IMG/VR virus record: IMGVR_UViG_3300033149_007081
Location: 1 to 34,317 of that record
DNA length: 34,317 nt
Origin: a virus
Direction: 5' to 3' (one strand)
The notes under the pieces were generated by a model. The model saw only the letters and a list, made by a program, of their open reading frames with translations. It did no database searches and had not been told where the DNA came from. A program made the position numbers and the translations under genes. The number at the start of each line of letters is the position of its first letter. Position 1 is the stretch's first letter. Positions 2 to 28,575 of this stretch are shown here, piece by piece.

Positions 2-289
2 AGGCTTAAAGAGCATCATCCCGAACTATTCGAACGAGCGAAGGCCTATGAAAAAGTAGAAAATGGGCGTGCTTATACGTGGGTTGATGGGCGTTCACTA
101 AGAGATATCGAGAATATTAAGAAGCGTTATGATGTACCCTCTATCGCCTCGCCGGCTTCCGATAGCCTCACTCTTCCATCTCTCATCGCCCTTAAGAACT
201 CCACCTGTTTTCTCAAATCAATCAGCATCTCTCACCCACGGGCCACCTATACAGAACAGCTCGTCTCCGCCTCTGAGACCTGCACATGA
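2..289 (+). CDS. C-terminal fragment of a PAPS reductase-like protein (partial)
   Basis: The frame is open from base 2 to a TGA at 287-289. The first ~46 residues (…HPELFERAKAYEK…TWVDGRSL…IKKRYDV) resemble the C-terminal end of phage PAPS reductase/adenine nucleotide alpha-hydrolase-like proteins; this is recognised by eye only. After about position 132 the reading becomes Ser/Leu/Thr-rich and lies antisense to two small leftward genes, so the last ~50 residues may be an artefact of a lost stop codon. The catalytic part is outside the window, so activity cannot be judged. Confidence 0.45.
   Translation, partial: RLKEHHPELFERAKAYEKVENGRAYTWVDGRSLRDIENIKKRYDVPSIASPASDSLTLPSLIALKNSTCFLKSISISHPRATYTEQLVSASETCT
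127..228 (-). CDS. Small Cys-array protein 16, truncated (33 aa, no Cys module)
   Basis: ATG at 228, TAA at 127-129. It reads MLIDLRKQVEFLRAM… and keeps the family N-terminal helix motif, but stops at …EAIEGTS before any cysteine. Its start overlaps the stop of the upstream paralogue by 11 nt, the same overlap seen elsewhere in the array, which supports a real start. It is the distal end of the array and lies antisense to the 3' part of the rightward gene. It is either a decayed copy or a helix-only variant. Confidence 0.6.
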   Translation of the reverse strand: MLIDLRKQVEFLRAMRDGRVRLSEAGEAIEGTS

Positions 290-436
290 CAGACAGATAC
301 ACCTATCCGGGCACGGGATGACCCGAGTAACCACAGTTGGCACTGCCTCCGGTTCCCCACTTGGGTGGACTTCAATGTAGCCGTCTCGACTCAACCGATT
401 GAGAATAATCGTCTGTAGTCTCAGATCAACCGCCAT
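218..436 (-). CDS. Small Cys-array protein 15 (72 aa)
   Basis: Starts MAVDLRLQTIILNRL; a second ATG one codon upstream (439) is possible, but 436 gives the recurrent 11-nt overlap with the preceding stop. The Cys module is unusually dense: I-P-C-x3-C-x-C-x2-C followed by A-G-L-R-G and F-C, so it has five cysteines rather than four. The function is unknown. Confidence 0.7.
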   Translation of the reverse strand: MAVDLRLQTIILNRLSRDGYIEVHPSGEPEAVPTVVTRVIPCPDRCICLSCAGLRGGDELFCIGGPWVRDAD

Positions 437-647
437 CATCTTCTATCCATTTCTCATCAATACAGTAAAGGCTGTCTCCTTTCAAGCCAGCGCAGTTGGT
501 TTCCGTAGGGCATCCGCAACAGGGAGTCAGTCTGGTGACAGAGATTGTGACTCTGTTAATGCTCATAATCTCGGTGATGTCAATCCACACTCGCCCCCGT
601 CGGTGGAATGAGTTGATTATTGTCGCCTGCAGTCCTAGATCAATCAT
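426..647 (-). CDS. Small Cys-array protein 14 (73 aa)
   Basis: The start is set at the ATG beginning MIDLGLQATIINSF, with GAGGTGG a few bases upstream. An in-frame ATG at 659 would add only MRWW and is not needed. The Cys region reads L-T-P-C-C-x-C…N-C-A-G-L-K-G…Y-C. It overlaps the upstream paralogue by 8 nt. The C-terminus is acidic (…WIEDDGG), and those codons also carry the coupling region of the next gene. Confidence 0.7.
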   Translation of the reverse strand: MIDLGLQATIINSFHRRGRVWIDITEIMSINRVTISVTRLTPCCGCPTETNCAGLKGDSLYCIDEKWIEDDGG

Positions 648-867
648 CCACCACCTCACTCAGGCAAACCCACCACTCATACCGCCCTTGCCTGTATGTG
701 CACCCTCTCACCTGGGGGCAGGAAGCTCGCCAGCAGTCCGGCCCCCGGCACGGCTTGATCCCACCGATCTGCACCTTCTCCCCTAGGGCGGTCATTATCT
801 GAACATGGCCACCACGCTTGACGAAAGCAGCCACTATTTCCGCTTGAGCTCTAAGATTTACTCTCAT
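640..867 (-). CDS. Small Cys-array protein 13 (75 aa)
   Basis: MRVNLRAQAEIVAAFVKRG opens the protein; Asn replaces the usual Asp at position 4, as in the right-hand block. The Cys module is K-P-C-x4-C-x4-C-P-x-V-R-G, then a fifth Cys, then WWVCL near the end. GAGGG precedes the ATG. The gap to the upstream gene is 3 nt. Confidence 0.75.
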   Translation of the reverse strand: MRVNLRAQAEIVAAFVKRGGHVQIMTALGEKVQIGGIKPCRGPDCWRASCPQVRGCTYRQGRYEWWVCLSEVVDD

Positions 868-870
868 CCC

Positions 871-1089
871 TCAAAGCCATTCCGAAAGCCTATCCCTCAG
901 ACCACAAAGCCCGCGAATCTTCAATCCGCTGCAAACGAAGGAGAGACCGCCACATTTTGTGCTTGGGCAGAGATGAATCGCACCTACCGTGTATCGTGGC
1001 CGGCTCAGCCACGAGGGAGCCGTTATCACCAGAAACTTTTCTTTATGTAGTTTTGCCAACACTGCTACTTGCAGGGAAAGATCAATCAT
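871..1089 (-). CDS. Small Cys-array protein 12 (72 aa)
   Basis: Begins MIDLSLQVAVLAKLHKEKF. The Cys module is H-L-C-x4-C-x6-C-S-G-L, with a fourth Cys in G-L-C-G-L instead of the usual W-x-C. It ends DRLSEWL. It is separated from the upstream gene by 3 nt. This is a divergent but complete member. Confidence 0.7.
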   Translation of the reverse strand: MIDLSLQVAVLAKLHKEKFLVITAPSWLSRPRYTVGAIHLCPSTKCGGLSFVCSGLKIRGLCGLRDRLSEWL

Positions 1090-1092
1090 CTC

Positions 1093-1290
1093 TCATCTTC
1101 CCCTCTCATAAGGGCAGAGCGCGATCATTCCTAGCTCACCATACATGGCAATTGGCGCAGGGCATTCCTTCCGACCGATGGGACAGAGAACATCCCACGG
1201 GCACCTTATAAGCCCGAGCCAACAATCGGTGTCTTTGAGTTCCAAGACACGTTCGGCTAGATACCTGAGATCTATTCTTCTTCTACCCAT
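1093..1290 (-). CDS. Small Cys-array protein 11, divergent (65 aa)
   Basis: The start is taken at MGRRRIDLRYLAERVLEL; an upstream in-frame ATG (1317) would extend it by nine residues deep into the preceding gene. IDLR is kept but the following Gln is lost. Four cysteines remain (I-R-C-x5-C-x6-C … A-L-C-P). The start overlaps the preceding gene by about 19 nt. It is one of the most divergent members. Confidence 0.6.
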   Translation of the reverse strand: MGRRRIDLRYLAERVLELKDTDCWLGLIRCPWDVLCPIGRKECPAPIAMYGELGMIALCPYERGR

Positions 1291-1520
1291 TCCCGCAAAC
1301 GTCTCCAAGTCAGGCACCGTAATCTTCGACTTTCCTGTTCTTTTCCTTCCAGCCCGCTACATTTAGGCTCAGGACACCAGGAAGATTCAGGGCAGGGCAG
1401 GACGATGCTTCCTATCCTTCTTATTATTGTACCACCTCCAATGCGGGAAGTGCGTAAAGAAATAGTATGCCCACAATGTAGTCGGTGTATCACAACAGCT
1501 TGTAGTCTCAGGTCGATCAT
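1272..1520 (-). CDS. Small Cys-array protein 10 (82 aa)
   Basis: The ATG at 1520 (MIDLRLQAVVIHRLH) overlaps the preceding TGA as ATGA. A longer open frame to 1607 exists but lies inside the upstream gene. The Cys module is L-P-C-x5-C-x4-C-S-G-L followed by L-R-C-L, and the tail is basic and acidic (…RRLREWVEEE). It is the longest member of the left block. Confidence 0.75.
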   Translation of the reverse strand: MIDLRLQAVVIHRLHCGHTISLRTSRIGGGTIIRRIGSIVLPCPESSWCPEPKCSGLEGKEQESRRLRCLTWRRLREWVEEE

Positions 1521-1732
1521 TTCAAGTTCTCCCTCGTGAGGCACCACAACTTCATGACTCCCCGCTCTGCCCCCACCAGACCAGCGCAATGATGCGCAGT
1601 CGGGCAACTATTGATATTCCCGCATAACCAGATGACCTGGGTAGCCATCGCCGCCCCATCAACGTAGGCAACCACGGCACCTTTGTGGGATAGTTTAGAG
1701 ATAACCTCTGCTTGCAGTCTCAGGTCGATCAT
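1517..1732 (-). CDS. Small Cys-array protein 9 (71 aa)
   Basis: MIDLRLQAEVISKLSHKG is close to the family consensus. The Cys module is W-L-C-x5-C-x5-C-A-G-L-V-G, then L-W-C-L. Its first 38 nt lie within the 3' end of the upstream gene, the longest overlap in the array. Confidence 0.75.
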   Translation of the reverse strand: MIDLRLQAEVISKLSHKGAVVAYVDGAAMATQVIWLCGNINSCPTAHHCAGLVGAERGVMKLWCLTRENLK

Positions 1733-1937
1733 TTTCCTTCTCTGCTGCGCAACAGCATAGTCTGTTCTTGGCGAATGACCAAGCGAGGAGGTGGCTACAC
1801 AGCGCAGTGCAGGCAGGAGAGCGGCAGATTGTGACTCTCCTGACTCTTTCCCGATAACGGCTTAGTGGGGAACGTAGTCGTAGCTCGTCACGGCTCAACC
1901 TGGCTAGGATTTCGCTTTGCAATCTCAAGTCAATCAC
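1695..1937 (-). CDS. Small Cys-array protein 8 (80 aa)
   Basis: Starts MIDLRLQSEILARLSRDEL. The middle is very Arg-rich, followed by T-I-C-x4-C-x3-C and a C-C-C cluster in place of W-x-C. The C-terminus (…ENDRPETASRGYL) runs 38 nt into the next gene and has no family match, so a small frameshift near the 3' end is possible. Confidence 0.65.
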   Translation of the reverse strand: MIDLRLQSEILARLSRDELRLRSPLSRYRERVRRVTICRSPACTALCSHLLAWSFAKNRLCCCAAEKENDRPETASRGYL

Positions 1938-2139
1938 TATTTCTGCACCCCGCCCAAGCCAAGCATATCATCGGCCCCTTGTCCGTTTTGCCAACTAGCT
2001 GGAGGGCGCAACCTGCACACCTCGCGCAGCAGGGCCAGAGTTCACTCACCAAGTAGCCCATCCCGATAATAGTAATGAGTATCGATCCACGGTGCTTGAA
2101 AGAGCTAAGGAACTCAGCTTGCTGTCTCAGATCAACCAT
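1930..2139 (-). CDS. Small Cys-array protein 7 (69 aa)
   Basis: Starts MVDLRQQAEFLSSFKHRG. The Cys module is compact: W-P-C-C-x2-C-x2-C-A-L-Q-L-V-G, then M-I-C-L and one more Cys. The C-A-L-Q-L element is shared with the next gene upstream, so these two are probably the most recent duplicates. Confidence 0.75.
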   Translation of the reverse strand: MVDLRQQAEFLSSFKHRGSILITIIGMGYLVSELWPCCARCAGCALQLVGKTDKGPMICLAWAGCRNSD

Positions 2140-2157
2140 TACTGTCTACCTTTACCC

Positions 2158-2355
2158 CTATCCCTCCAGACATATCCACCACTCCCGGTGCTCACCCGTA
2201 AACCCGCGTAATTGCAAAGCGCAGTTGGGGCAACGGGTCTGACAAGGCTTGATCTTAGAGACAGGGAACAGGTCGCCTCCAGCGGATATCGTCAGCCTTC
2301 CCTTCCACCGATCGAACAGATGAAGGAATTCGGCTTGTTTGCGTAGATCAATCAT
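2158..2355 (-). CDS. Small Cys-array protein 6 (65 aa)
   Basis: Starts MIDLRKQAEFLHLFDRW; ATGA overlap with the upstream stop. Cys module K-P-C-x3-C-x2-C-A-L-Q-L-R-G, then WWICL, and the protein ends three residues later. It is a short, clean example of the family. Confidence 0.8.
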   Translation of the reverse strand: MIDLRKQAEFLHLFDRWKGRLTISAGGDLFPVSKIKPCQTRCPNCALQLRGFTGEHREWWICLEG

Positions 2356-2576
2356 AAGACGATTCGTTCACGTGTGAGACACCACATGGCAAACCACTCG
2401 CTTTCAATTCCCCGCAGCTCGGGGCAGGGGCGGTCCCTGGAACAAATCTCTCTCGAGTGGCAGGGACGCACGCGATCAATTTCCCTTACCTCATTCGGTC
2501 GGGGGAAGATAAGCAATCTGCCATTCTTGTGAAAAAGGCTCAGGATTTCTGCTTGTGATTTCAAGTCAACAATCAT
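2352..2576 (-). CDS. Small Cys-array protein 5 (74 aa)
   Basis: Starts MIVDLKSQAEILSLFHKNG. Cys module R-P-C-x5-C-x5-C-P-E-L-R-G, then M-W-C-L-T-R-E-R. It is close to the left-block consensus and overlaps the upstream gene by 11 nt. Confidence 0.8.
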   Translation of the reverse strand: MIVDLKSQAEILSLFHKNGRLLIFPRPNEVREIDRVRPCHSREICSRDRPCPELRGIESEWFAMWCLTRERIVL

Positions 2577-2811
2577 CTCTTATTAACCTCTCTTCTGTGA
2601 TACACCATCTCACAGGCCAATCGCCGCTCTCAACTCCCCTCAATCTTGAGCATTTGTCCACTCCGATACATCCGCCCGACTTTCTCCTGCAAAGTTCAAT
2701 CCGCCTCACCACGCTCACTCTTACGTTAAGCAACATAGGAATACGCATTACAAGGGTGCCATTACGATGGAAAGAGCTCAGGATTTCCGCTTGTAGCTTG
2801 AGATCAACCAC
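2566..2811 (-). CDS. Small Cys-array protein 4 (81 aa)
   Basis: Starts MVDLKLQAEILSSFHRNG and shares the EILS-FH-NG stretch with the next gene downstream, suggesting a recent duplication. Cys module E-L-C-x6-C-x5-C-S-R-L-R-G, then R-W-C-I; it ends in an extra Cys. It overlaps the 20-codon upstream remnant by 8 nt. Confidence 0.8.
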   Translation of the reverse strand: MVDLKLQAEILSSFHRNGTLVMRIPMLLNVRVSVVRRIELCRRKSGGCIGVDKCSRLRGVESGDWPVRWCITEERLIRDDC

Positions 2812-2866
2812 ACCACAGCCCCCCTCCCTGCTCTTCGTCTATTACCTGTAACCTGAGATCGGTCAT
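2804..2866 (-). CDS. Miniature small Cys-array protein 3 (20 aa, internal deletion)
   Basis: ATG at 2866, TGA at 2804-2806. It reads MTDLRLQVIDEEQGGGLWCG: the family start MxDLRLQ is joined directly to the family end L-W-C, with about 45-55 residues missing between. It keeps the ATGA overlap with the gene upstream and an 8-nt overlap with the gene downstream. It may matter mainly as a relay for translational coupling. Confidence 0.6.
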   Translation of the reverse strand: MTDLRLQVIDEEQGGGLWCG

Positions 2867-3090
2867 TTTACCTTTGGGAATAGTGTATGTCGGTGTACAC
2901 ACCACGCGGTGCCCCATCCTCTCTCAATCCCCAGCAGCTTTGGACACGTCTCTGTCCTGGAGCAACCGCCGTACCAACAAGGTCGTATGTGCTCTAGTTT
3001 CACCACTTCGCCAGGATAAGGACAGATTAATATCTTTCCCTTATCCTGAAACATTTTTAGAATCTCCACCTGCCGTCTCAGATCAATCAC
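2863..3090 (-). CDS. Small Cys-array protein 2 (75 aa)
   Basis: Starts MIDLRRQVEILKMFQDKG. Cys module R-P-C-x4-C-x5-C-P-K-L-L-G, then A-W-C-V. The tail is basic. Both ends show 4-nt ATGA junctions, typical of tight coupling. Confidence 0.8.
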   Translation of the reverse strand: MIDLRRQVEILKMFQDKGKILICPYPGEVVKLEHIRPCWYGGCSRTETCPKLLGIERGWGTAWCVHRHTLFPKVK

Positions 3091-3290
3091 CTAATACACC
3101 ACCACACCTTCCACCTCTTGTCGAGTCCTACCACTCTCGGACAGGTGATGGTGTCGCACAGTCTACCTCTGCACGGCTCAATCCGACCGGCTGTGAGCAA
3201 CCCCCGACCACCACCTGGAGTACGAACGGGGATACTAGAGCCCGAACGGAAAGAGTGTAGGATCTCCACTTGCCGTTTTAGGTCAACCAT
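3087..3290 (-). CDS. Small Cys-array protein 1, first of the left block (67 aa)
   Basis: The start is the ATG at 3290 (MVDLKRQVEILHSF), preceded by a GAGGAGG SD. A longer open frame to 3410 overlaps the VWA gene out of frame and is rejected. Cys module E-P-C-x4-C-x4-C-P-R-V-V-G, then WWCI at the very end. It begins 17 nt after the VWA stop codon and so is in the same operon. Confidence 0.8.
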   Translation of the reverse strand: MVDLKRQVEILHSFRSGSSIPVRTPGGGRGLLTAGRIEPCRGRLCDTITCPRVVGLDKRWKVWWCIR

Positions 3291-3307
3291 TTCCCCCTCC
3301 TCTCTCC

Positions 3308-4540
3308 TCACCTCTTTGTATACACCACCTTCCCATACCCCGGCACCTGCTCCTTCCTGTCTCCAAAGAACACCACCAATAGCGGGTACCCAGGGCTCTT
3401 CTCCGGCCACGGCCCCTCCGCGTCGGTAAAGATAACGGTAAATGCCGGCCTGTACTCCCTCGCCTGTTCGAGGACCGGCCGGAAATCCGTGCCGCCATAC
3501 CCCTCCCTCCTACCCCAGTTCTCCTTTACATCCTCCACCGTCCGTAGCTCCACTACCCCCTTCACTTCCGTGTCAAAGGCCATCCCTACCAGCTCCACTT
3601 CCGTTCGCCTCAGCATGGAACACACTTCCCCCACCGCATCCCGGTAGTTCTCATCACTCATACTTCCCGACACGTCATTCGCCACAACCCCCTTCGCCTT
3701 GTACATGGTCCTTCTCCCCGGGACTACCCAAGGCAGCTTCCGGTTGCGTTTGTCCCAGGTGGTATAGCGATAACTGCGAATGGAATTAGAGACAAACTGA
3801 GCGAGTACTCGCTGCCAGGGTACCTCTCCCGCGGAGAACCAGTCAGAGAAAAACTGTACCAAGTTCCCCGGGATGTTCCCCGCCATACGCTTGTACGCAC
3901 GCTGGACAATCTCCCTCACCTTCGCCCGTTGCTCCAGGGTCATGGGTTCAGAGGGGAGGGAGTCACTCACCCGCACGGTGACCTCCTTGCCGTTCTTCAA
4001 ACGAACGGTGTAGTCTTCTCCCGCCTCGATGTCGTCTGGGTCCACTTCCTCCCATTCGCCATCGTCCTCGTCATCCTCACCGCCCCTCCCCGCTCCTTCA
4101 GGCACATACTGGAGATATTGCACCCAAGTGAGGTTTTTGGGCAGGCCGAAGAGGGACGGGGTGACGGGCACGCCCTTTACCGATCGGAGCGGCTCCATCT
4201 CCAGCAGGTTTTCGTTTATCGCCAAGTCCTGGGCGATGTTCATCCGCATCCTATCCCTCGTTTGTTGCACGGTATGCTGCAGGAGTACATGCCAGATCTC
4301 ATGACAGAGCAGCGTCCGGGTCACCTCGTCGGAGCAGGAGAGCCAGGCGTAACGGGAGAAGGTGATTTCAGGGACGAGGTCTTTGGCGATCCATACCTTC
4401 GCTAACCACTTCGCTTTGTTTTTGTGGTGGAGATAGTACCGCGCCTCCACAGCAAGCTCTCCTAGCAAGGGCTGTTCGGCAAGGAGGTATTTGATAATGT
4501 CAGTTAGTCTCTTACTATTTTTTATCCTTTCTCCGCACAT
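3308..4540 (-). CDS. DUF2201-type VWA protein with putative metallopeptidase domain (410 aa)
   Basis: The N-terminal ~150 residues carry an HExxH-type motif, HEIWHVLLQH (about residues 80-89), typical of the DUF2201_N putative metallopeptidase domain. An acidic linker (about 153-175) follows. A C-terminal VWA-like domain has the MIDAS motif D-V-S-G-S (about 289-293) and a later F-T-D-A-E-G acidic loop. COG3864-type proteins with this layout usually pair with MoxR ATPases, and one lies immediately upstream here, overlapping by 26 nt. The likely role is an adaptor or chaperone with the ATPase, acting on an unknown client. ATG 4540 is chosen because GGAGG sits 8 nt upstream; a GTG three codons earlier is possible. 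Confidence 0.85.
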   Translation of the reverse strand: MCGERIKNSKRLTDIIKYLLAEQPLLGELAVEARYYLHHKNKAKWLAKVWIAKDLVPEITFSRYAWLSCSDEVTRTLLCHEIWHVLLQHTVQQTRDRMRMNIAQDLAINENLLEMEPLRSVKGVPVTPSLFGLPKNLTWVQYLQYVPEGAGRGGEDDEDDGEWEEVDPDDIEAGEDYTVRLKNGKEVTVRVSDSLPSEPMTLEQRAKVREIVQRAYKRMAGNIPGNLVQFFSDWFSAGEVPWQRVLAQFVSNSIRSYRYTTWDKRNRKLPWVVPGRRTMYKAKGVVANDVSGSMSDENYRDAVGEVCSMLRRTEVELVGMAFDTEVKGVVELRTVEDVKENWGRREGYGGTDFRPVLEQAREYRPAFTVIFTDAEGPWPEKSPGYPLLVVFFGDRKEQVPGYGKVVYTKR

Positions 4541-5792
4541 TCCCTCCACCTCCCTTCCGTGTCTTCTCCTCTCCTCCCTTTTCCTTTTCCTGTTCCTCCC
4601 CTTCTTTCTCTCCCTTTTCCTGCTCCTGTTCCTCCCCCTGTACCTCCTTCGCTATCGCCTCGTTTCCCAGGATCTCCTTCACTGTCTCATCATCCCCTGC
4701 GGCAGTGAAGAGCTTAAACCACACGTCATAATACCCGTCTTCCTGCCGCGCTTTCTCGAAGACGGTAAAGAAGTAGCGGTAGGCGATCTCAGGGGGCAGG
4801 TCGTGGGTAAACTCCAGTATTTTGGGGATGGCCTTTATCACCTCGTCGTTATCCGCATACAGGAGTCCATCCACTGCCTTGAGTAGCACGTGATTGTCTC
4901 CCGCTTCCCGGAACTGCCTTACCTTCTCCCGCGTCCTCTTATCGTATTTCAATATCTCCTCCACAGGCAGCTCTTTCATCCTGTCCCGGTAGTACTGATT
5001 CAGCTCAATGGCGGTGCTAAAGTCCAGCATTGAGGAACACTTGGAGAGAAAGAGATCCAGCCTCCCCTCCTCTTCCAAAAAGTAGAGGGCTTGGGAGAAC
5101 TCCTCAATCATCCTCCCCGCATTCTGGTCTTTGTTGAAATGGTTCGGGTTGCGGGCGAAGAACTGAGATACTACCGGGTGGATTCTCCGCCGGCCGTTAT
5201 TCCCGCTCGGACCCTTGCCCCATTCCAACAGTTCATCGAGGGTAAGCTCCATCGGATAGATCTTGAACCGAGTGCGGAGAGACCAGTCAGAGAGGAGGTC
5301 GCTCACCTGGTAGTCTCCCGTGTCCTCTGGGTTGCAGGCAGCCACCAACACCCATTTCTCGGGGAGGGGGTGTTCGTGTACCTGTCGCTCGTGGAGAAGC
5401 TTATGAAGTAACTGTTGACTGGCGTCTAGCCTCTGCCCGCGGTTAATCTCATCAAAAAACACCAGTGTCCACTCGTTCTCCCAGTCCAGTCTCCACCAGG
5501 AGGGGAGGCGATACACCATCTGCCCCCGACTCTTATCGATATCAGGGAACCCGGCTATTTCTCCCTCGGGCATTTCCGAAATGCGGTTCGTGATGAGCCT
5601 GCCCTGGAAGAGATCCACCATGACGGAATGAGCAAGATCCCACTGCATCTGGGTCTTGCCTATCCCGTGAGTACCCACCAGCAAAGGCACCAGCCTCGGG
5701 GGGCGATCACCTTTTTCAATAGCCCTCACGTACTGGAGAATGTCCAGCACCAGGTTATCTCTCGCTTCACGGTAACTGAGTTTTGTTTCCAT
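4515..5792 (-). CDS. MoxR-type AAA+ ATPase (425 aa)
   Basis: Walker A is G-T-H-G-I-G-K-T (residues 40-47), Walker B L-V-F-F-D-E (about 110-115), and a sensor-1 Asn lies in A-A-C-N-P-E-D (about 154). The pattern fits the MoxR/AAA_5 clade, whose members act with VWA partners to remodel or activate target proteins. The last ~60 residues are a highly charged Glu/Lys/Gln low-complexity tail. ATG 5792 is preceded by GGGAGGAG; an upstream GTG-type frame to 5840 lacks an SD. It lies between the two blocks of small Cys genes and is co-transcribed with them, making the Cys proteins candidate clients or regulators (inference). Confidence 0.88.
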   Translation of the reverse strand: METKLSYREARDNLVLDILQYVRAIEKGDRPPRLVPLLVGTHGIGKTQMQWDLAHSVMVDLFQGRLITNRISEMPEGEIAGFPDIDKSRGQMVYRLPSWWRLDWENEWTLVFFDEINRGQRLDASQQLLHKLLHERQVHEHPLPEKWVLVAACNPEDTGDYQVSDLLSDWSLRTRFKIYPMELTLDELLEWGKGPSGNNGRRRIHPVVSQFFARNPNHFNKDQNAGRMIEEFSQALYFLEEEGRLDLFLSKCSSMLDFSTAIELNQYYRDRMKELPVEEILKYDKRTREKVRQFREAGDNHVLLKAVDGLLYADNDEVIKAIPKILEFTHDLPPEIAYRYFFTVFEKARQEDGYYDVWFKLFTAAGDDETVKEILGNEAIAKEVQGEEQEQEKGEKEGEEQEKEKGGEEKTRKGGGGNVRRKDKK

Positions 5793-5858
5793 CTCATGCT
5801 CCTCCCTTCTGTTCTTTATAGTGGCTTCTTCACACACCACCGGTGTACTCTTGCTAGA

Positions 5859-6089
5859 TCAATCATACCAGCCCCACCTCACTACAGCAAAGAGCCAACC
5901 GAGGCCCACTGGCCGGAGTATACACCCTCTCGCTCGTCGGCAGTTGTTCGGATAGAACGCACATGGTCGGAATAGATCGCCTGCCTTCTTGGATTGATAC
6001 ACAACCACGCCTGCTAGCATGATAGCAACTCGGCCACCGTGAGCGAGATGAGTACAGGTCTCCGCGATTTTTGCAAGGTTGATTGTCAT
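5859..6089 (-). CDS. Right-block Cys protein E (76 aa)
   Basis: ATG at 6089 (MTINLAKIAETCTHLAHGG) with ATGA overlap; a longer frame to 6191 lies over the previous gene. It has R-P-C-x6-C-x5-C, but the final W-x-C is replaced by R-W-G-W, so the fourth Cys is missing. It ends 66 nt before the MoxR start. Confidence 0.7.
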   Translation of the reverse strand: MTINLAKIAETCTHLAHGGRVAIMLAGVVVYQSKKAGDLFRPCAFYPNNCRRARGCILRPVGLGWLFAVVRWGWYD

Positions 6090-6319
6090 CCTATTTCCAC
6101 CGCCCCCATGCAGGTTCGCCAGCGGTTCCCTGCCTGCAGTACTGTGCACCCGACACAGTAGAGGCTGGAGCAGGAGGGATAATGGCGGCATGGATATATT
6201 TTGTCGCCCCTTTGTATATGTCGGTACCAGCTTCCGTCGCGCGAGAGGAGATAACGAACCTGTTTTCCCCTTACTACTGCCGCACAGAGCACGGCTATCT
6301 GGCGCAAATCAACTCTCAT
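6086..6319 (-). CDS. Right-block Cys protein D (77 aa)
   Basis: ATG at 6319 (MRVDLRQIAVLCAAVVRG) is chosen to match the family start; an in-frame ATG at 6349 would add ten residues. The Cys module reads Y-P-C-x4-C-x4-C-x2-C, with a final T-C-M-G instead of W-x-C. It overlaps the upstream gene by 11 nt. Confidence 0.7.
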   Translation of the reverse strand: MRVDLRQIAVLCAAVVRGKQVRYLLSRDGSWYRHIQRGDKIYPCRHYPSCSSLYCVGCTVLQAGNRWRTCMGAVEIG

Positions 6320-6551
6320 CGCATATGCACCAACACCCCCACGGCTCATTTGGATCGTCCAGCCGGCGATACCCCCGCAACTGAAGGCGGCAACTCACTG
6401 CACAAGCCGAGAAGACTCCCCCGCTTCGGCACGGTTGTACGTAATCCAAGTGAAGCCGGTAGGTAAGCACCTCGCCCATGCTTTTGAACTTCACTGGCTG
6501 CCCTCTCGCAACGAGCACGCAGACGGCAGCCACTGAACGGAGATCGATCAC
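6309..6551 (-). CDS. Right-block Cys protein C, GTG start (80 aa)
   Basis: The family motif VIDLRSVAAVCVLVARG begins at a GTG (6551) preceded by AAGGGAG. That GTG overlaps the upstream TGA as GTGA, mirroring the ATGA junctions. An ATG at 6575 is eight codons upstream inside the previous gene. Cys module Q-P-C-x7-C-x3-C-x-L-Q-L-R-G, then C-W-C-I-C. Confidence 0.7.
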   Translation of the reverse strand: MIDLRSVAAVCVLVARGQPVKFKSMGEVLTYRLHLDYVQPCRSGGVFSACAVSCRLQLRGYRRLDDPNEPWGCWCICDES

Positions 6552-6793
6552 AGCAACTCCCTTATACACCACCATTCTTCATCTACTATTCGGCCGTTCA
6601 ACCTGCACAGTCTATCATATCCATGCAGTTGGGTCTGGCATCCCCGCTCGCATTCCGGCGCCCATCTCCGGCGGCACGGGAGAACCGCCCCGAACACGCG
6701 GGAACCTGCCTCCCCCGTAGCTCGGCAGAAATACACTCGCTTGTGGCGTGAGATTAAGAGGCAGACGGCTGCTACTTTTGCCAAATCAATCAT
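6548..6793 (-). CDS. Right-block Cys protein B (81 aa)
   Basis: ATG at 6793 (MIDLAKVAAVCLLISRHK). Cys module L-P-C-x7-C-x3-C-Q-T-Q-L-H-G, then a charged stretch and E-E-W-W-C-I. It is the member most like the left block at its C-terminus. It overlaps the upstream gene by 8 nt. Confidence 0.75.
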   Translation of the reverse strand: MIDLAKVAAVCLLISRHKRVYFCRATGEAGSRVFGAVLPCRRRWAPECERGCQTQLHGYDRLCRLNGRIVDEEWWCIRELL

Positions 6794-6935
6794 CTTCAAT
6801 ATCCAATGATGAACAGATTGGCGCCAGGTGGCACGGGATGAGCCGGACCTCATTCAAGCCGTCTAGAGCGATTACGCTGTACCCCGTTGCCAGTTTAGAA
6901 CAGGTGTCGGCCATCTTTGCGAGGTTAACCGTCAT
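6786..6935 (-). CDS. Right-block Cys protein A, truncated (49 aa)
   Basis: ATG at 6935, TGA at 6786-6788. It reads MTVNLAKMADTCSKLATG and reaches only L-I-P-C-x5-C before ending SSLDIEDD. It therefore has the N-terminal half plus the first two module cysteines. The stop of the upstream membrane-protein gene directly abuts its ATG. Confidence 0.65.
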   Translation of the reverse strand: MTVNLAKMADTCSKLATGYSVIALDGLNEVRLIPCHLAPICSSLDIEDD

Positions 6936-7946: not shown

Positions 7947-8264
7947 TTACGGCCAGTCGTAGACCTGCACGACAAAGGTGCGCCAGCCGGCCTCCTCGAT
8001 CTCCTCTCTGCTAAATTCCCGGGCCTCCTGAGCCCGGAAATTGGGGATAACGCAAAAAAGCGTATCCCCATCCCCGAGGGATACGCTTTCTCTGTTAAAC
8101 TGGACCTCCCGACCCAACAGGACCGAGAGGATCTTTGCGGTTACCTCATGCCCGACAATGCTCTTGGCATCGCGAGGGATCCGACCAATGGCAATGGGAC
8201 TTACCACCGCCATGGTCTCCCTGTCCAGCATCATGGGGCTAAAGGTCGAGCTGAGATACCTCAT
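7947..8264 (-). CDS. acrIII-1: Viral ring nuclease, anti-CRISPR AcrIII-1 (DUF1874), 105 aa
   Basis: ATG 8264 follows AGGAGGAACAAAG; a longer frame to 8426 overlaps the next gene and is rejected. The start MRYLSSTFSPMML matches the YLANAFS-like strand of DUF1874 proteins. S-I-V-G-H-E-V-T-A-K-I-L then matches the family's IGHE/DxTxxxL motif. Compared from memory with SIRV1 gp29, H39, R58, R77 and E80 fall on H47, R66, R85 and E88 with one constant offset. The family degrades cyclic tetra-adenylate, the second messenger of type III CRISPR, and so shuts off ancillary nucleases. It lies in the presumed early leftward operon, as expected for counter-defence. Confidence 0.82.
   Translation of the reverse strand: MRYLSSTFSPMMLDRETMAVVSPIAIGRIPRDAKSIVGHEVTAKILSVLLGREVQFNRESVSLGDGDTLFCVIPNFRAQEAREFSREEIEEAGWRTFVVQVYDWP
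8043..8089 (-). terminator. Intragenic terminator-like hairpin with competing alternative, inside acrIII-1
   Basis: On the transcript, AAAGCGTATCCC (8089-8078), a 9-nt loop and GGGATACGCTTT (8068-8057) form a perfect 12-bp stem running into U residues down to 8054. Just downstream, GCGTTATCCCC (8053-8043) can pair instead with GGGGATACGC, which would break the first stem. This is the layout of a terminator and an antiterminator, but it lies in coding sequence. Confidence 0.45.
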
Positions 8265-9462: not shown

Positions 9463-9490
9463 ATCCTACCACGTTTTCCACAAATGTCAA
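9463..9490 (-). promoter_or_regulatory. Leftward sigma70-type promoter
   Basis: TTGACA on the minus strand (9490-9485), a 16-bp spacer and TAGGAT (9468-9463); a second TAGGAT-like hexamer lies at 9457-9452. It reads towards the 9394 gene and would drive the whole leftward unit. Confidence 0.6.
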
Positions 9491-11035: not shown

Positions 11036-11065
11036 TCCCTGCGGTTGTTACTGGCGGGTTGGACA

Positions 11066-11926
11066 ATGCCTAGACTCCGCTCTCCTATACGCTGGTTCGG
11101 CGGTAAAGGAAACATGGCAGGGAAACTGCTTCCCCTCGTTCCCCAACACCTGATCTATGTGGAGGTGTTCGGCGGGGGTGCATCCCTCCTCTTTGCCAAG
11201 GAGCCGGCGAAGGTAGAGGTGTATAACGATCTTGATTCCGGGCTTGTCAATTTTTTTCGGGTTCTGAGGGACCCGGAGCAGTTCGCTCGTCTCTACCATT
11301 ATGCCTCTTTCACCCCCTATTCACGAGAAGAGTTCTATTACTGTCGGGACACATGGAAATCCGAGAAAGACCCCGTGATGCGTGCGTATAAGTGGTTTGT
11401 GGTAGCAAGGATGTCATTCAGCGGCGCGTTCGGACGGAGCTGGAGCTTTGCAAGATCACTATCCAATAGAGGGATGGCCGATACCTGCTCGAAATGGCTC
11501 TCCACTCTTTCCATGCTCCCCCTCCTCCACGAGCGGGTTATGCGGGTACAGATCGAGCATAGTCCTTTCCAGAAGGTTATTCCCACCTACGACACCCCTG
11601 ACACGTTTTTCTACCTGGACCCGCCGTACATGCCGGAGACCAGAAGTGGCGGTAAGTACAGCCACGAAATGACTAAGGAGGATCACCGACAACTGCTATC
11701 GATCATCCTTAACTGCCAAGGCAAGATAATGATCTCGGGTTATCCCAACGAGCTCTACGATACAGTGCTCAGTGAATGGCGCAGGAAAGAGTGGAAGACT
11801 GTTTCTCATGCTACTGCTAAGATGCGAGGAACGGGTATACTGGGGGAGGGGGCGGCCCTCGGGAAACAATCGCGAGTGGAGGTGATATGGATGAACTACA
11901 GCGAGGAGGTCACATGTGGAGGCTGA
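11066..11926 (+). CDS. D12-class adenine-N6 DNA methyltransferase (Dam-like, 286 aa)
   Basis: The D12/Dam family layout is clear: WFGGK (about residues 10-14) and the SAM-binding loop VEVFGGGASLLF (about 32-43) near the N-terminus, and motif IV DPPY (185-188) after a variable recognition region. The enzyme would methylate adenine in DNA; the target sequence cannot be read from the sequence. No restriction gene is beside it, so it is probably an orphan phage methylase protecting the phage from host restriction. ATG 11066 is chosen; a TTG at 11045 would add seven residues. Confidence 0.88.
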   Translation: MPRLRSPIRWFGGKGNMAGKLLPLVPQHLIYVEVFGGGASLLFAKEPAKVEVYNDLDSGLVNFFRVLRDPEQFARLYHYASFTPYSREEFYYCRDTWKSEKDPVMRAYKWFVVARMSFSGAFGRSWSFARSLSNRGMADTCSKWLSTLSMLPLLHERVMRVQIEHSPFQKVIPTYDTPDTFFYLDPPYMPETRSGGKYSHEMTKEDHRQLLSIILNCQGKIMISGYPNELYDTVLSEWRRKEWKTVSHATAKMRGTGILGEGAALGKQSRVEVIWMNYSEEVTCGG

Positions 11927-14020: not shown

Positions 14021-14588
14021 GCAAAGAAGACCGTCTCGGCAAAGGGGTGAGCGTGGAGGTACAGGTAGAGAAGGCGGAGCAGTAATAATCACCGATGAGG
14101 GCCGCTCGGGAAAAGACTGGAACAGAGAAGGTGCGAGGGAACTGCTGGAGAGACTGGATGAGTTCGACCATCTCATAGTGTATAGGCTCGACCGGCTGTC
14201 CCGCTCCGCCTTGGATCTACTTGATATCTCCAACCACCTCCAAGCAAAGGGTGTGCAGCTCCACTCCATCTGTGAGAGCATCGACACCTCCACGGCAGTG
14301 GGGAAGCTGTTCTACGGGTTCCTCGCTCTCTTTGCCGAGTTCGAGCGGAACAGGACGGTTGAGCGCACGAAGGAGGCGCTGGACTACAAGAGAGACAATG
14401 GCGAATGGGTAGGGAGGGTGCCGTTCGGGTGGACTCTCGCCAATGGCGGTCTGGTGGAGAACATAGAGGAGCAAAAGAGAATAGAACAGGCAAGAATGTT
14501 GCGAGAAAAGGGGGAGAGTTGGAGGTACATATCACGAGTACTGAATGTGGACAAGATGACTATCAAGAGGGCAGTGGAGAGAGGGTAA
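13969..14588 (+). pseudogene. Serine recombinase (resolvase/invertase), frame-broken
   Basis: ATG 13969 follows GGGAGGAAGGGAAG. The first frame gives R-R-A-V-A-Y-C-R-V-S-K-E-D (catalytic Ser) and ends at TAA 14083-14085 after …VEVQVEKAEQ. The family sequence resumes one frame back as VIITDEGRSGKDW…, then Y-R-L-D-R-L-S-R-S and a C-terminal HTH (…SWRYISRVLNVDKMTIKRAV) ending at 14588. About 10-15 residues normally found between these parts are missing as well. As written, no full-length enzyme can be made. It is a small recombinase of about 205 aa, without the large C-terminal domain of integrases. Confidence 0.7.
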
Positions 14589-18006: not shown

Positions 18007-18324
18007 ATGCCGAGACGTATGGATGAATCCCTCATGCCTCCGAGTTACCTGATCGATCCGATCAAGGACAAGGTGGTAGTCTATAAAGACGCCGCACCCG
18101 AGCAACATGGGGTGATAATAATCCCCGAAACAGTTCGAGACCGCGAGATCATCCTCACCGGTCGTGTCGCGGCGGTCGGCCCGGACGTCACCTCCCTCTC
18201 TCCGGGCGATTACGTCTGTTTCGGACAGTACGCCGGCACTCAGGTGAAAATAGACGACGAGACTTACCACGTGATGCTCGAAAAGGACATCCACGTGGTT
18301 CTCAGAGAGCGCAAAAAGGAATAA
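18007..18324 (+). CDS. GroES/Cpn10-like co-chaperonin (105 aa)
   Basis: The Cpn10 pattern is clear: I-K-D-K-V-V-V-Y at the N-terminal strand, a mobile-loop region ending G-V-I-I-I-P-E-T, G-R-V-A-A-V-G-P-D, then S-P-G-D-Y-V-C-F and Y-A-G-T-Q-V-K-I-D-D-E-T-Y. It would cap the host GroEL, as T4 gp31 does, to fold capsid or portal subunits. The I-I-I-P stretch fits the mobile loop's hydrophobic contact. It starts its own promoter unit and lies directly before the portal. Confidence 0.82.
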   Translation: MPRRMDESLMPPSYLIDPIKDKVVVYKDAAPEQHGVIIIPETVRDREIILTGRVAAVGPDVTSLSPGDYVCFGQYAGTQVKIDDETYHVMLEKDIHVVLRERKKE

Positions 18325-22124: not shown

Positions 22125-23266
22125 ATGGCTATACTGAGGACCAATCTTTCCAACCTCATGAAGGTGGACCTTGATCGGGTTCTCTTCGAGGCTTGGAAGA
22201 CTCTGCCGTACGAGCAGATCCTCAATACCCTCTTCAATGTAAGCACGTCCACCAAGAAAGAAGAGAAGAACCAGACAGTCGGCGGGTTTGGGCTTGCGAC
22301 AGTGAAGGAGGAAGGCGAGGATCTGACCGAGAAGCAGTTCAAGGAAGGTTACCAGACAACCTACACCCACAAGACTCTCGGGTATTATACCGCCATCTCT
22401 CTCGAAGCGAGGGAAGACGAGCAGTATGGGATCATCAAAAAGGCCCCGAGAGCCATGGCGAGGTCGGTTGACGCAACCATCAACTACTACATGGCGCGGA
22501 TCTTCGGGTACGCGAACTCCACCACCAACGGGAAGGAAGCACGCAGGTTGACCTGAGCGCGACTTCCCTCTGGGCGGGGATTACCGCTTTCAACGAGATG
22601 CTTGACGATGCGGGGAAACCCATCGCCAACACACCGCGGTATTTGGTGGTTCCTCACCAGAGTCAGCAGCAGGCAATCGAGTTGCTGTATTCGGAGAAGT
22701 TCCCCGAGTCGGCTGAAACTTTCGGCCCCAGGACGGCGAGTGCGTGATGAATAAGCGCTGTACTGGAAAACCCGGTGAAATCAGGGAACACCTCAGTGAC
22801 GAGGCAATCCTGAGCCAAGCCCGCTGGGAAACTAGTGGGAAGGTGCAGAGACTAGAGGACGAGGCTAAGGGAAGCTCCTATGCCGGTAACTCCTCCACGA
22901 GCGCCGGGTACGGTGACGCACACCGTAATGATATAGTCCGAGCTGCATAGCGATATGCAGAAGTGGGGGATAAAGAGCCCTCACGGTAACACACTGGAAA
23001 ATGCGATCAACGCTCTCCGTAAGGCGGTCAACCTCGAACTGGTTGTCTGGAAGTACTGGCTCGGGAGCATCGATTCTGACTGCTGGTTCCTGGTCGCCGA
23101 CAAGAACGCATCTGATGACCACCCGCTGAGGTTCTACTGGAGAATGCGGCCTCAGACGGAATCCGACAACGACTTTTTCTCCAAAGATTTCCTCTACAGC
23201 TTGGTCATGAGGATGTCGCTCGGGTACGACGATTGGCGTTTCCTGTATGGATCGATGGGCAGTTAA
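22125..23266 (+). CDS. Major capsid protein, intron-interrupted and frame-broken
   Basis: Exon 1 begins MAILRTNLSNLMKVDLDRVLF, has L-G-Y-Y-T-A-I-S-L-E-A-R-E-D-E-Q-Y-G and D-A-T-I-N-Y-Y-M-A-R-I-F, and hits a stop at 22554-22556. The capsid sequence resumes in the -1 frame at about 22535 as GSTQVDLSATSLWAGITAFN and runs to …ETFGPRTASA at 22745. Related capsids (from memory) carry about 18-20 residues (…DG..LFS..HP…) at this point, so a deletion plus frameshift is likelier than a simple slip. A group I intron (22746-22985) follows. Exon 2 resumes NTLENAINALRKAVNLELVV and ends G-S-M-G-S. The spliced sequence is about 300 codons. Confidence 0.75.
22746..22985 (+). ncRNA. Group I intron (about 240 nt, likely IA type)
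   Basis: The conserved core is visible. P3 is CCCGG/CCGGG (5' strand near 22770, 3' strand near 22907). P4 is TCAGG/CCTGA, in ATCAGGGAAC and AATCCTGAGCCAAG. P5 is CCTC/GAGG and P6a CCCGCT/AGTGGG. P7 is GACTA in GTGCAGAGACTAGA with TAGTC in GATATAGTCC. P8 is ACGGTG/CACCGT. P9 is CTGCATA-GCGA-TATGCAG (22943-22960) with a GNRA loop, and a P9.2-like stem GTGGGGG/CCCTCAC lies at 22963-22984. P1 pairs exon GCGT with GCGC, placing the 5' site after T22745; a terminal G at 22985 keeps the capsid frame. No ORF of its own. Confidence 0.85.
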
Positions 23267-23308
23267 ACCTAATAAAATCAATGATTTAGCTCAGTTCTTG
23301 GTGAGAAA

Positions 23309-24019
23309 ATGCTCTGTAAGTTCTGTGGTAAAGAGATTCCAAACGTCAGCAAACGGGGTAGGCCGCGTTGCTACTGTAGCGTGAGATGTCAGAGGAAATA
23401 TGAGTATCGGCAGAGGCGGAAAAGTATTCTTGCCGATATGAAGCAGAAGTACTATGACAATCACGAGGAATACCTGCAGCGTGCGAAGTACTTCCGTGAT
23501 GCTAAGGGAAAGAATCTCAAGTCAGACAAAATCATGTCCGATCTGGAGCGTGGATATGTTGCGGGTTTGTTTGATGGTGAGGGCACGATTGGTATGATTG
23601 TAGAGGGGAGGAAAGAGAATGCCTGCGGCATCCGGTTCTCCCCGAATGTGGTAATCTACAATACCAATGTGGCGCTGTTGAGCAGGGCTCGGGAAGCTAT
23701 GGGCAACGGCGCGATCTATAGCCACGATAGCGGGCGCAATGGACATAAGCGCTCCTATGCGTTACGTCTCACGGCTAACCAAATCCGGCATGTCCTACCT
23801 CAGATAACGGGCGTTCTAGTCGCAAAAAGAGAACAAGCAGAGCTTTTGCTTGCCTATTTGGAACTGGCTGAATCGGGTGTTCGCACTGCCCATCTGTACG
23901 AGCGCTTCGTCGATATTTACTGGAGACTCAGCATTCTCAATGCGCGGGGAAAGGTTACTTATTTCCCTCGGGCTTCGATTGAGAACAAGTTGCAGTCTAT
24001 TGCTGAGAGAGCTTCGTAA
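23309..24019 (+). CDS. Free-standing LAGLIDADG homing endonuclease with N-terminal zinc finger (236 aa)
   Basis: An N-terminal finger, C-K-F-C-G…C-Y-C-S-V-R-C (about residues 3-31), precedes a basic linker. The LAGLIDADG motif Y-V-A-G-L-F-D-G-E-G (about 83-92) is followed by the usual …SYALRLTANQI… strands. With one motif it would act as a dimer. It lies outside the intron, directly after the capsid gene it interrupts. It is visibly richer in A/T than its neighbours, as expected of a recent arrival. Confidence 0.82.
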   Translation: MLCKFCGKEIPNVSKRGRPRCYCSVRCQRKYEYRQRRKSILADMKQKYYDNHEEYLQRAKYFRDAKGKNLKSDKIMSDLERGYVAGLFDGEGTIGMIVEGRKENACGIRFSPNVVIYNTNVALLSRAREAMGNGAIYSHDSGRNGHKRSYALRLTANQIRHVLPQITGVLVAKREQAELLLAYLELAESGVRTAHLYERFVDIYWRLSILNARGKVTYFPRASIENKLQSIAERAS

Positions 24020-27137: not shown

Positions 27138-27414
27138 CAAAACAGGTCGTACTTGGGCTATCCCGAGTGCGGATGCGAGCACGAGCACGCCGGTCTGGAA
27201 CGATCGAGTGCTGATAAAGAAGCTCTCCTGGCTTAGCCCGCAGACCTCGGGGGACGATGTGATAGTGAAGGACACCGAAGGTCGTGTGATTTGGCAGAGA
27301 AAGGCCCAAGCGGTGGGTGATGGTATCCTCTACACGTTCGACGTGGACAACTGGCACAAGGGGTTGCTTGCTCACACGATCGACAGCGGTACTCTCTACG
27401 TGGAGATAGGGTGA
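27127..27414 (+). CDS. Small virion-associated hypothetical protein (95 aa)
   Basis: ATG 27127 has GAGGAG 8 nt upstream and is preferred to GTG 27118. Beta-rich sequence (…RVLIKKLSWLSPQTSGDDVI…, …GTLYVEIG). It resembles small phage proteins near the tail genes but is not assigned. Confidence 0.55.
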   Translation: MAIDKTGRTWAIPSADASTSTPVWNDRVLIKKLSWLSPQTSGDDVIVKDTEGRVIWQRKAQAVGDGILYTFDVDNWHKGLLAHTIDSGTLYVEIG

Positions 27415-28565
27415 TGAAAAGGATAATCGGACTTCTGCTCGGGGCGGTACTGGCCCTTGCTCCGGTGACGGCAATTACCGACGAGGCACCGGTGGTGATA
27501 AAGGTTCAGGAGGAGGACGGCTCTCCCTCCGGCTGGGTGTACGGGCTCAAGGTGACAAACGGCCAGCTTACCATCAATGCCGACGGGACGGCGAGTCTGA
27601 ACTTCGGTACGGCGACGGGGGACATTTCCGCAGTCGGTGACGGGGCGTCGGGGGCGGTGTTTACGGCTGACGGAGCCGGCAATACTCTGTACTTTGAGGG
27701 ATCTACCGCCGACGATTACGAGATTGCTCTCACTGCGGCCGACCCGGGTGCGGATTACACGATCACCCTTCCCGCGACTACCGGTACAGTATATGTGTCG
27801 GGGGGTACCGATGTCTCGCTGGGGGATGGCGGGACCGGCGCGAGTCTGAGTGACCCGGGCGCGGACAAGATATTGTTTTGGGATGATTCGGCGAGTGCTG
27901 TGACCTGGCTCTCTGTCAGTACAGGGCTGTCGGTAAGCGGCACGGATCTCACCGCTTCTCTCGGAACGGCGGTAGATACGAGCGAAATCACCGATGACAC
28001 GATACTGGCCGCTGACCTGGACGCCACAAACACGGAAGCCGATAACGATATTGTCACCTATGACTCGGCATCCGGTGGATTTACCTTCAACATCCCATCC
28101 GAGATCATCACCGCTGGCACGAATCTTTCCTGGTCGGGGGCTACCCTCAACGTGGATGATGCGTTTTTGGTGAACAATGCCAATGACGTGACAACCGGCA
28201 CCATCACCATGGCAGGGGTGATACTGGAGGGAGGTACTTACGACACTACCCTGCAAGCGGGCACTCCCACCGCCTCTGTCACCTATACTCTCCCGGGTGC
28301 GGACGGAACGAGCGGGTATCTGCTCTCCACCAATGGCTCCGGCACTCTTTCCTGGTCTCAGGTGGGGGATTCGGCAATCGCCGCAGGAGCAGTGGACGGG
28401 GGCAGCGGAGGGGAGATAGCCGACAACACCATAGATGCGAACGATCTGGCGGCCACCCTCACCTTCGCTGATGGAGATCTGATAAATCTCGGCGGCATCA
28501 CCATGTCCGCCTCCACCGACGAAGGACTGGTACGACGCAGCCTCGAATTCGATCAAGGTATATGA
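27414..28565 (+). CDS. Fibre-like protein 1 with signal peptide (383 aa)
   Basis: TGATG overlap with the preceding stop. MKRIIGLLLGAVLALAPVTA is a Sec signal peptide. The mature part is Gly/Ser/Thr/Asp-rich with tail-fibre features (…ITLPATTGTVYVSGG…, …FWDDSASAVTWL…, …YLLSTNGSGTLSWSQVG…). About 125 residues (27801-28175) are repeated in the next gene at ~83% identity. A signal peptide on a fibre-like protein is unusual. Confidence 0.7.
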   Translation: MKRIIGLLLGAVLALAPVTAITDEAPVVIKVQEEDGSPSGWVYGLKVTNGQLTINADGTASLNFGTATGDISAVGDGASGAVFTADGAGNTLYFEGSTADDYEIALTAADPGADYTITLPATTGTVYVSGGTDVSLGDGGTGASLSDPGADKILFWDDSASAVTWLSVSTGLSVSGTDLTASLGTAVDTSEITDDTILAADLDATNTEADNDIVTYDSASGGFTFNIPSEIITAGTNLSWSGATLNVDDAFLVNNANDVTTGTITMAGVILEGGTYDTTLQAGTPTASVTYTLPGADGTSGYLLSTNGSGTLSWSQVGDSAIAAGAVDGGSGGEIADNTIDANDLAATLTFADGDLINLGGITMSASTDEGLVRRSLEFDQGI

Positions 28566-28575
28566 AGGAGGCTGG

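Follow-up and report, generated by a model that had tools for sequence, protein, structure and literature searches.

A tandem array of small cysteine-module paralogues around a MoxR/VWA gene pair in an uncultivated phage

Here, we describe a tandem array of small genes in the IMG/VR record IMGVR_UViG_3300033149_007081, a linear fragment of an uncultivated phage, of which the entire 34,317 bp served as the window of our analysis. The array occupies positions 127-6935 on the minus strand and is a tandem paralogue family far beyond chance. Of its 22 members, 17 are full-length paralogues of 65-82 aa, one is a diverged copy and four are fragments. They are arranged in two blocks flanking a gene pair that encodes a MoxR-type AAA+ ATPase (AAA) and a fusion of zincin metallopeptidase and VWA domain. 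With the copies labelled c01 to c22, the order along the minus strand is c21 to c17 plus c22 (6935-5816), AAA (5792-4515), zincin-VWA (4540-3308) and c16 to c01 (3290-127), and the gaps ahead of the AAA gene and behind the VWA gene measure 23 nt and 17 nt. The array forms the distal end of a leftward block spanning approximately 1-9.4 kb, while genes for terminase, portal, a capsid-like protein and tail proteins run rightward. An original prediction, made from the sequence alone, had described the array as joined mostly by 4-, 8- or 11-nt overlaps, and indeed 15 of the 20 array junctions are overlaps of exactly these lengths.

The common origin of the copies is supported by leave-one-out hidden Markov models (HMMs), each built from the remaining copies and run against all 1128 six-frame open reading frames (ORFs) of the window. 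These held-out models recovered 17/17 full-length copies at E-values of 3.5e-4 to 4e-19, and the best non-member never scored below 0.024. The upstream block starts with c21 (6786-6935, 49 aa, E=0.018), which is C-terminally truncated, and continues with the full copies c20 (6548-6793, 81 aa, 7.6e-11), c19 (6309-6551, 80 aa, 3.9e-10) and c18 (6086-6319, 77 aa, 6.7e-7), the full-length but diverged c17 (5859-6089, 76 aa, 3.5e-4) and a 16-aa remnant with the N-terminal motif (c22, 5816-5866, MIDLARVHRWCVKKPL). The downstream block opens with the full copies c16 (3087-3290, 67 aa, 7.6e-16) and c15 (2863-3090, 75 aa, 2.4e-16), followed by c14 (2804-2866), a 20-aa remnant in which the N-terminal motif is fused to the terminal WC without the middle. 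Then come c13 (2566-2811, 81 aa, 4.4e-19), c12 (2352-2576, 74 aa, 3.6e-18), which is the copy used for structure modelling, c11 (2158-2355, 65 aa, 1.7e-13), c10 (1930-2139, 69 aa, 3.3e-12), c09 (1695-1937, 80 aa, 7.9e-7), c08 (1517-1732, 71 aa, 1e-11) and c07 (1272-1520, 82 aa, 1.6e-13), all full. The strongly diverged c06 (1093-1290, 65 aa, E=11) is followed by four more full copies, c05 (871-1089, 72 aa, 4.2e-8), c04 (640-867, 75 aa, 1.6e-12), c03 (426-647, 73 aa, 5.9e-11) and c02 (218-436, 72 aa, 2.7e-9), and the array ends with c01 (127-228, E=4e-4), an N-terminal fragment of 33 aa. As c06, c14 and c22 are not significant alone in the HMM test, they were assigned by position and the IDL/TDL start motif, c14 and c22 by reading of the sequence. 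Independent of any profile, pairwise BLASTP among small ORFs joins 10 copies at E<1e-3.

All 21 leftward frames listed in the original prediction exist on the minus strand; the list was incomplete, as it missed the remnant c22. The further claim that all 21 share both the N-terminal motif and a C-terminal Cys module is too broad, given that only 17 members are full copies, c06 is diverged and c01, c14 and c21 lack a complete module. At least four Cys are present in 16 of the 17 full copies (c17 has three in its module), with a spacing of roughly C-x(3-8)-C-x(1-6)-C-x(8-18)-C, ranges that in copies with extra Cys vary with the choice of Cys. The proposed W-x-C ending is loose, since a W precedes the last Cys directly in about half of the copies.

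Comparison of the copies with each other shows that they are constrained as proteins. The ratio of nonsynonymous to synonymous differences per site (pN/pS) amounts to 0.58 for the N-terminal helix, 0.74 for the Cys part and 1.02 for shuffled sequence, and values under the shuffled expectation imply that the frames carry protein-level constraint. A lack of purifying selection, named beforehand as an outcome that would speak against the family, was therefore not found. In the middle region, where the alignment is uncertain, the ratio of 0.93 is near the shuffled expectation. Between copies, synonymous sites have nearly saturated (pS ~0.74), which together with the constraint argues for copies that are old and maintained. 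Moreover, adjacent copies resemble each other more than they do after shuffling of the order (p=5e-5; downstream block alone p=0.0055), and similarity is 63.0 and 64.7 within the blocks versus 37.1 between them. This likeness of neighbours indicates that the array grew by local duplication, and the AAA-VWA pair lies between two sub-arrays. The fragments c01, c14, c21 and c22 point to ongoing loss, so that copies are both born and lost fast. Taken together, the copies are homologous, tandemly duplicated and constrained at the protein level, and they combine a conserved scaffold with variable segments.

These data also bear on the idea that the array is a mostly non-functional amplification, i.e., a segment prone to tandem duplication whose copies mostly drift, with only one or two of importance. 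Four fragments, one strongly diverged copy and the near-neutral pN/pS of the middle region would fit such a scenario. Against it, 17 copies have stayed open, with at least three Cys and the helix motif, in spite of near-saturated synonymous divergence, and a phage genome would hardly keep 7 kb of drifting copies. We therefore consider this explanation very unlikely.

For insights into the fold, we modelled c12 with AlphaFold2, using an alignment of the 17 paralogues alone as input. The best model reached a mean predicted local distance difference test (pLDDT) score of 86.7 and a predicted template modelling score (pTM) of 0.72, with all five models between 84.7 and 86.7, so that the structure prediction of a single paralogue, one of the checks suggested at the outset, yields one confident mini-domain. 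The model contains a helix (residues 5-18) and strands at 21-23, 31-33, 35-38, 54-57 and 64-66, which we tentatively interpret as a small SH3/Sm-like barrel that carries an N-terminal helix and four conserved Cys. Across the copies, D/N4, L5, C39, C51, G56 and C66 are almost invariant and Q8 is found in 13/13 copies of the downstream block, whereas residues 22-35 are highly variable, mostly with 2.3-3.5 bits entropy. As C39 is placed after strand 3, C45 in a loop, C51 before strand 4 and C66 on strand 5, a four-Cys metal site is plausible, and in the predicted structure this site probably holds a metal ion. Typical copies have the spacing C-x4/5-C-x4/5-C-x14-C and are devoid of the two CxxC or CPxCG knuckles that define a classical zinc ribbon. 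In consequence, the site is not a classical zinc ribbon, and an iron-sulfur centre may be an alternative for the predicted ligand.

The predicted barrel raises the question of whether the copies are Sm-like regulators in the manner of Hfq, Rof or WYL proteins, which would bind RNA, single-stranded DNA or Rho and steer host or phage transcription. Nearly all structure matches of the c12 model are small SH3/Sm-like barrels, including Sm proteins, Hfq, the WYL domains of DriD and PafBC, Rof and tudor domains. In addition, Rof, itself a small Sm-like protein, inhibits Rho chiefly via its N-terminal helix (PMC11018626), and the helix is the most conserved element of the copies. However, all these matches are weak and individually insignificant (Foldseek E >=2; Z scores of 4.1 for the DriD WYL domain as the best, 3.9 for Hfq and 3.5 for Rof), and a Z below 8 may mean no more than a common arrangement. 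The copies may resemble Hfq, Rof/YaeO, Sm proteins and WYL domains in their predicted helix followed by short strands that would form a barrel, but they differ by the four-Cys site, the variable segments and the tandem array. At the sequence level, not one of the 17 members gave a Pfam match to Hfq, ROF or WYL, even with E-values up to 10 allowed. To our knowledge, Rof and Hfq are devoid of a four-Cys module, which also counts against this possibility. Finally, 17 copies with such strong divergence would be superfluous for a single regulator, and we judge a regulatory role of this type to be quite unlikely.

The gene pair inside the array, which the original prediction had named as MoxR/VWA, is intact. 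The AAA+ ATPase (4515-5792, minus strand, 425 aa) carries Walker A (GTHGIGKT) and Walker B (LVFFDEINR) motifs and matches phrog_1297 (E=3e-32), with a Pfam AAA_5 match (E=8e-4) below the cut-off of that family. Its partner (3308-4540, minus strand, 410 aa) fuses a DUF2201_N zincin (PF13203, E=4e-16; HEIWHVLLQH, in line with HExxHxxxxH) to a DUF2201 VWA domain (PF09967, E=3e-20) with the metal-ion-dependent adhesion site (MIDAS) DVSGS, and matches phrog_1314 (E=7e-50). The latter family is labelled 'HNH endonuclease', also on many phage records, although its members match zincin metallopeptidase and VWA. The pair is also present in AR9 (g028/g029), Pseudomonas phage LY218 and Thermus phage phiFa. 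A VWA alignment retrieved 80 loci from IMG/VR that carry a VWA relative. An AAA gene lies within 6 kb on the same strand in 75 of them and upstream in 69. In contrast, neither the Cys family nor at least four true same-strand tandem small paralogues occur in any of the 80 loci. Two candidate arrays came up among other viral contigs: one (L041:50-884, plus strand) has three tandem small paralogues with 4-nt overlaps about 9 kb from a VWA gene, which do not match the Cys family of the window, and an apparent array of 11 in L072 was rejected, as it consists of overlapping multi-frame readings of a repetitive region.

In this context, it has to be considered whether the copies are adaptors or clients of the MoxR/VWA-zincin machine, with the constant helix docking to it and the variable barrel presenting a target for unfolding or cleavage. 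The location of the pair within the same gene string, its intact motifs (Walker A/B, HExxHxxxxH, MIDAS) and the constraint on the copies, strongest in the N-terminal helix as expected of a docking element, are in favour of this possibility, as is the description of MoxR/VWA pairs as chaperone-cochaperone couples (PMC7824862; PMC7159879). Nevertheless, the conservation of the helix is also explained by packing on the barrel, and the pair is an ordinary, widespread phage module, which belongs to the core of phages without such proteins, as for genes 24/25 of the N4-like phages (PMC4193335) and in AR9. Since the array is missing from all 80 VWA loci, the recurrence beside MoxR/VWA genes that had been put forward for checking was not seen, and the link to the pair comes down to adjacency in one contig. 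The strongest argument against a built-in role as client or adaptor comes from this survey; a relation specific to this phage may exist, but possibly the pair is inside the array only as a neighbour. Overall, we regard an adaptor or client role as unlikely. An elaboration with modular targeting, in which about 17 adaptors with one docking helix would each bring a different host protein to the MoxR/VWA-zincin and the set would be extended by duplication, appears distinctly improbable.

The jumbo-phage MoxR-vWA pair has been proposed to act in virion assembly (PMC7824862), so the copies might also be small structural or decoration subunits, made in many variants and processed by the pair. This fits poorly with the position of the array in a non-structural leftward block, whose genes run against those for terminase, portal and capsid, and a high divergence of the copies would be unusual for repeated virion subunits. 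A virion role is in our opinion highly improbable. There is also a resemblance to the MoxR-vWA ternary conflict systems, which likewise combine MoxR and vWA with extra variable components nearby, but these are cellular and have large partners such as VMAP (PMC7159879). Beside the pair described here, neither VMAP nor another large third core component is found, and its neighbours are Cys copies.

The Cys family itself could not be connected to any described protein family. Nothing credible was found for the 17 members in Pfam, PHROGs and NCBIfam, for a subset of members in PADLOC, or by profile search in PDB sequences; a PDB profile match to Rho GTPases (E >=0.3) and a Pfam match of one member to VMAP-M2 (E=0.16) were discarded as noise. 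The expectation that the family is unclassified, and would not fall into a well-known class, was hence borne out in Pfam, PHROGs, NCBIfam and PDB sequences. Searches with tblastn using single copies and the consensus against INPHARED phages and plasmids (E up to 10) returned noise only. Exact-motif matches in IMG/VR (8) and GTDB contigs (16) were all due to chance according to the HMM, and scans of this kind can miss diverged relatives. A profile search of 54 phage and viral records, six single genomes and 793 bacterial genomes of two phyla, the latter not a host-targeted choice, yielded nothing at E <0.02. The identical search finds 17 places in the window, which demonstrates that it works, as does the recovery of all 17 full-length copies by the held-out profiles, the HMM check proposed initially. 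Close relatives of the phage were sought in IMG/VR by terminase, portal and AAA, and none was useful. The family is accordingly unique within the searches made here.

Besides the array, the window holds several features of the surrounding genome. The best sigma-70-like promoter of the leftward block (TTGACA-16-TAGGAT, 9463-9490, minus strand), a consensus match only with 10/12 positions in a consensus scan, sits upstream of the first leftward gene. At the other end, a plus-strand frame (2-289) converges on c01 and overlaps it; open at the contig start, this frame (1-289) has no family match and may represent the 3' end of a gene, in which case its junction would have cut the array short. The same leftward block contains, upstream of the array, a STIV B116-like gene (7947-8264, minus strand; PF08960, E=3e-10; phrog_5063), whose family takes its name from a protein of an archaeal virus. 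On the plus strand, we found i) a D12 adenine methyltransferase (11045-11926), ii) a serine resolvase fragment (14178-14588), for which the Pfam match begins at profile position 70/145 and the N-terminal half is either absent or in another frame, iii) a GroES-like Cpn10 gene between the terminase and portal genes (18007-18324; PF00166, E=4e-15), iv) within 22125-24016, a capsid-like gene (Phage_capsid_4, E=1.5e-5) with a group I intron (22705-22960; RF00028 in Rfam, 86.8 bits) and then a LAGLIDADG-like ORF (23309-24016) behind it, so that the capsid gene probably carries an intron with a homing endonuclease, and v) two successive tail-fibre-like ORFs (27411-31140) which have long near-identical repeats in common (e.g. 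DTSEITDDTILAADL). The best phage matches of the methyltransferase include the Thermus phages Lalka27b, Lalka27a and phiMa (37-40% identity), and phiFa, also a Thermus phage, provides the VWA relative with the best coverage, similarities that hint at a thermophilic host. The Cys family was not found in six Thermus phage records by profile search.

Based on our data, we favour, with moderate confidence, the explanation that the array is a phage-made repertoire of diversified, metal-stabilised small binding modules. The ancestral gene would have encoded one domain of 65-80 aa, with an N-terminal helix, a small beta barrel and a four-Cys probable metal site, and would have been duplicated head to tail many times. 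The copies would have kept the scaffold, namely the helix motif DL-x-x-Q-x-E, four Cys and one Gly, while free divergence would have taken place between the helix and the first Cys, in the loop that separates the first Cys residues and ahead of the last Cys. With a fixed scaffold and diverged segments, each copy could present a different surface. We infer that the copies are co-transcribed at the distal end of the leftward operon and that their translation is coupled from stop to start via the 4-, 8- or 11-nt overlaps, by which all copies would be made together, probably early in infection. Individual copies would most likely bind and block different host or defence components. A scaffold with variable segments, many diverged copies, coupling and a narrow distribution fit such a binder repertoire, and a restricted distribution is common for genes that counter the host. 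Of the roles offered in the original prediction (clients, adaptors or diversified effectors), the combination of constraint and strong diversification thus agrees with the last, a set of effectors or binders, and the survey of VWA loci speaks against the first two. Several points weigh against a binder repertoire: modelling of the upstream block alone gave an unusable result (pLDDT 45), the ratio of 0.93 in the middle region may be due to misalignment instead of diversification, and some copies are dispensable, as the fragments show. Furthermore, no second genome with the array was found in the searches made.

Among known systems, the phage pair of MoxR AAA and zincin-VWA (phrog_1297/phrog_1314), as in Schitoviridae (N4 genes 24/25), AR9 and phiFa, agrees with the pair described here in domains, motifs and gene order, but small Cys paralogues surround it in no other locus examined. 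For the array itself, a comparable arrangement is described for archaeal viruses such as SIRV2, in which small early anti-defence genes are clustered and multiple uncharacterised anti-CRISPR (Acr) paralogues are possible (PMC11065993). These clusters are alike in having several small, fast-evolving genes side by side; however, they consist of mixed families and most of their early genes have their own early promoter, whereas the array is made of one family in more than 20 consecutive positions of one gene string. Given the paralogue-bearing anti-defence clusters of archaeal viruses, the general kind is known, and it is the Cys family and its scale that are new. For a single phage, about 20 diversified copies of the same small domain side by side are extreme. 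Should the copies bind different host factors, the array would constitute a ready panel of natural binders for host or defence proteins, and since every copy is shorter than 85 aa, the set is directly expressible and screenable. If true, the array would show how a phage widens its panel of binders by tandem duplication on a fixed, metal-stabilised scaffold.

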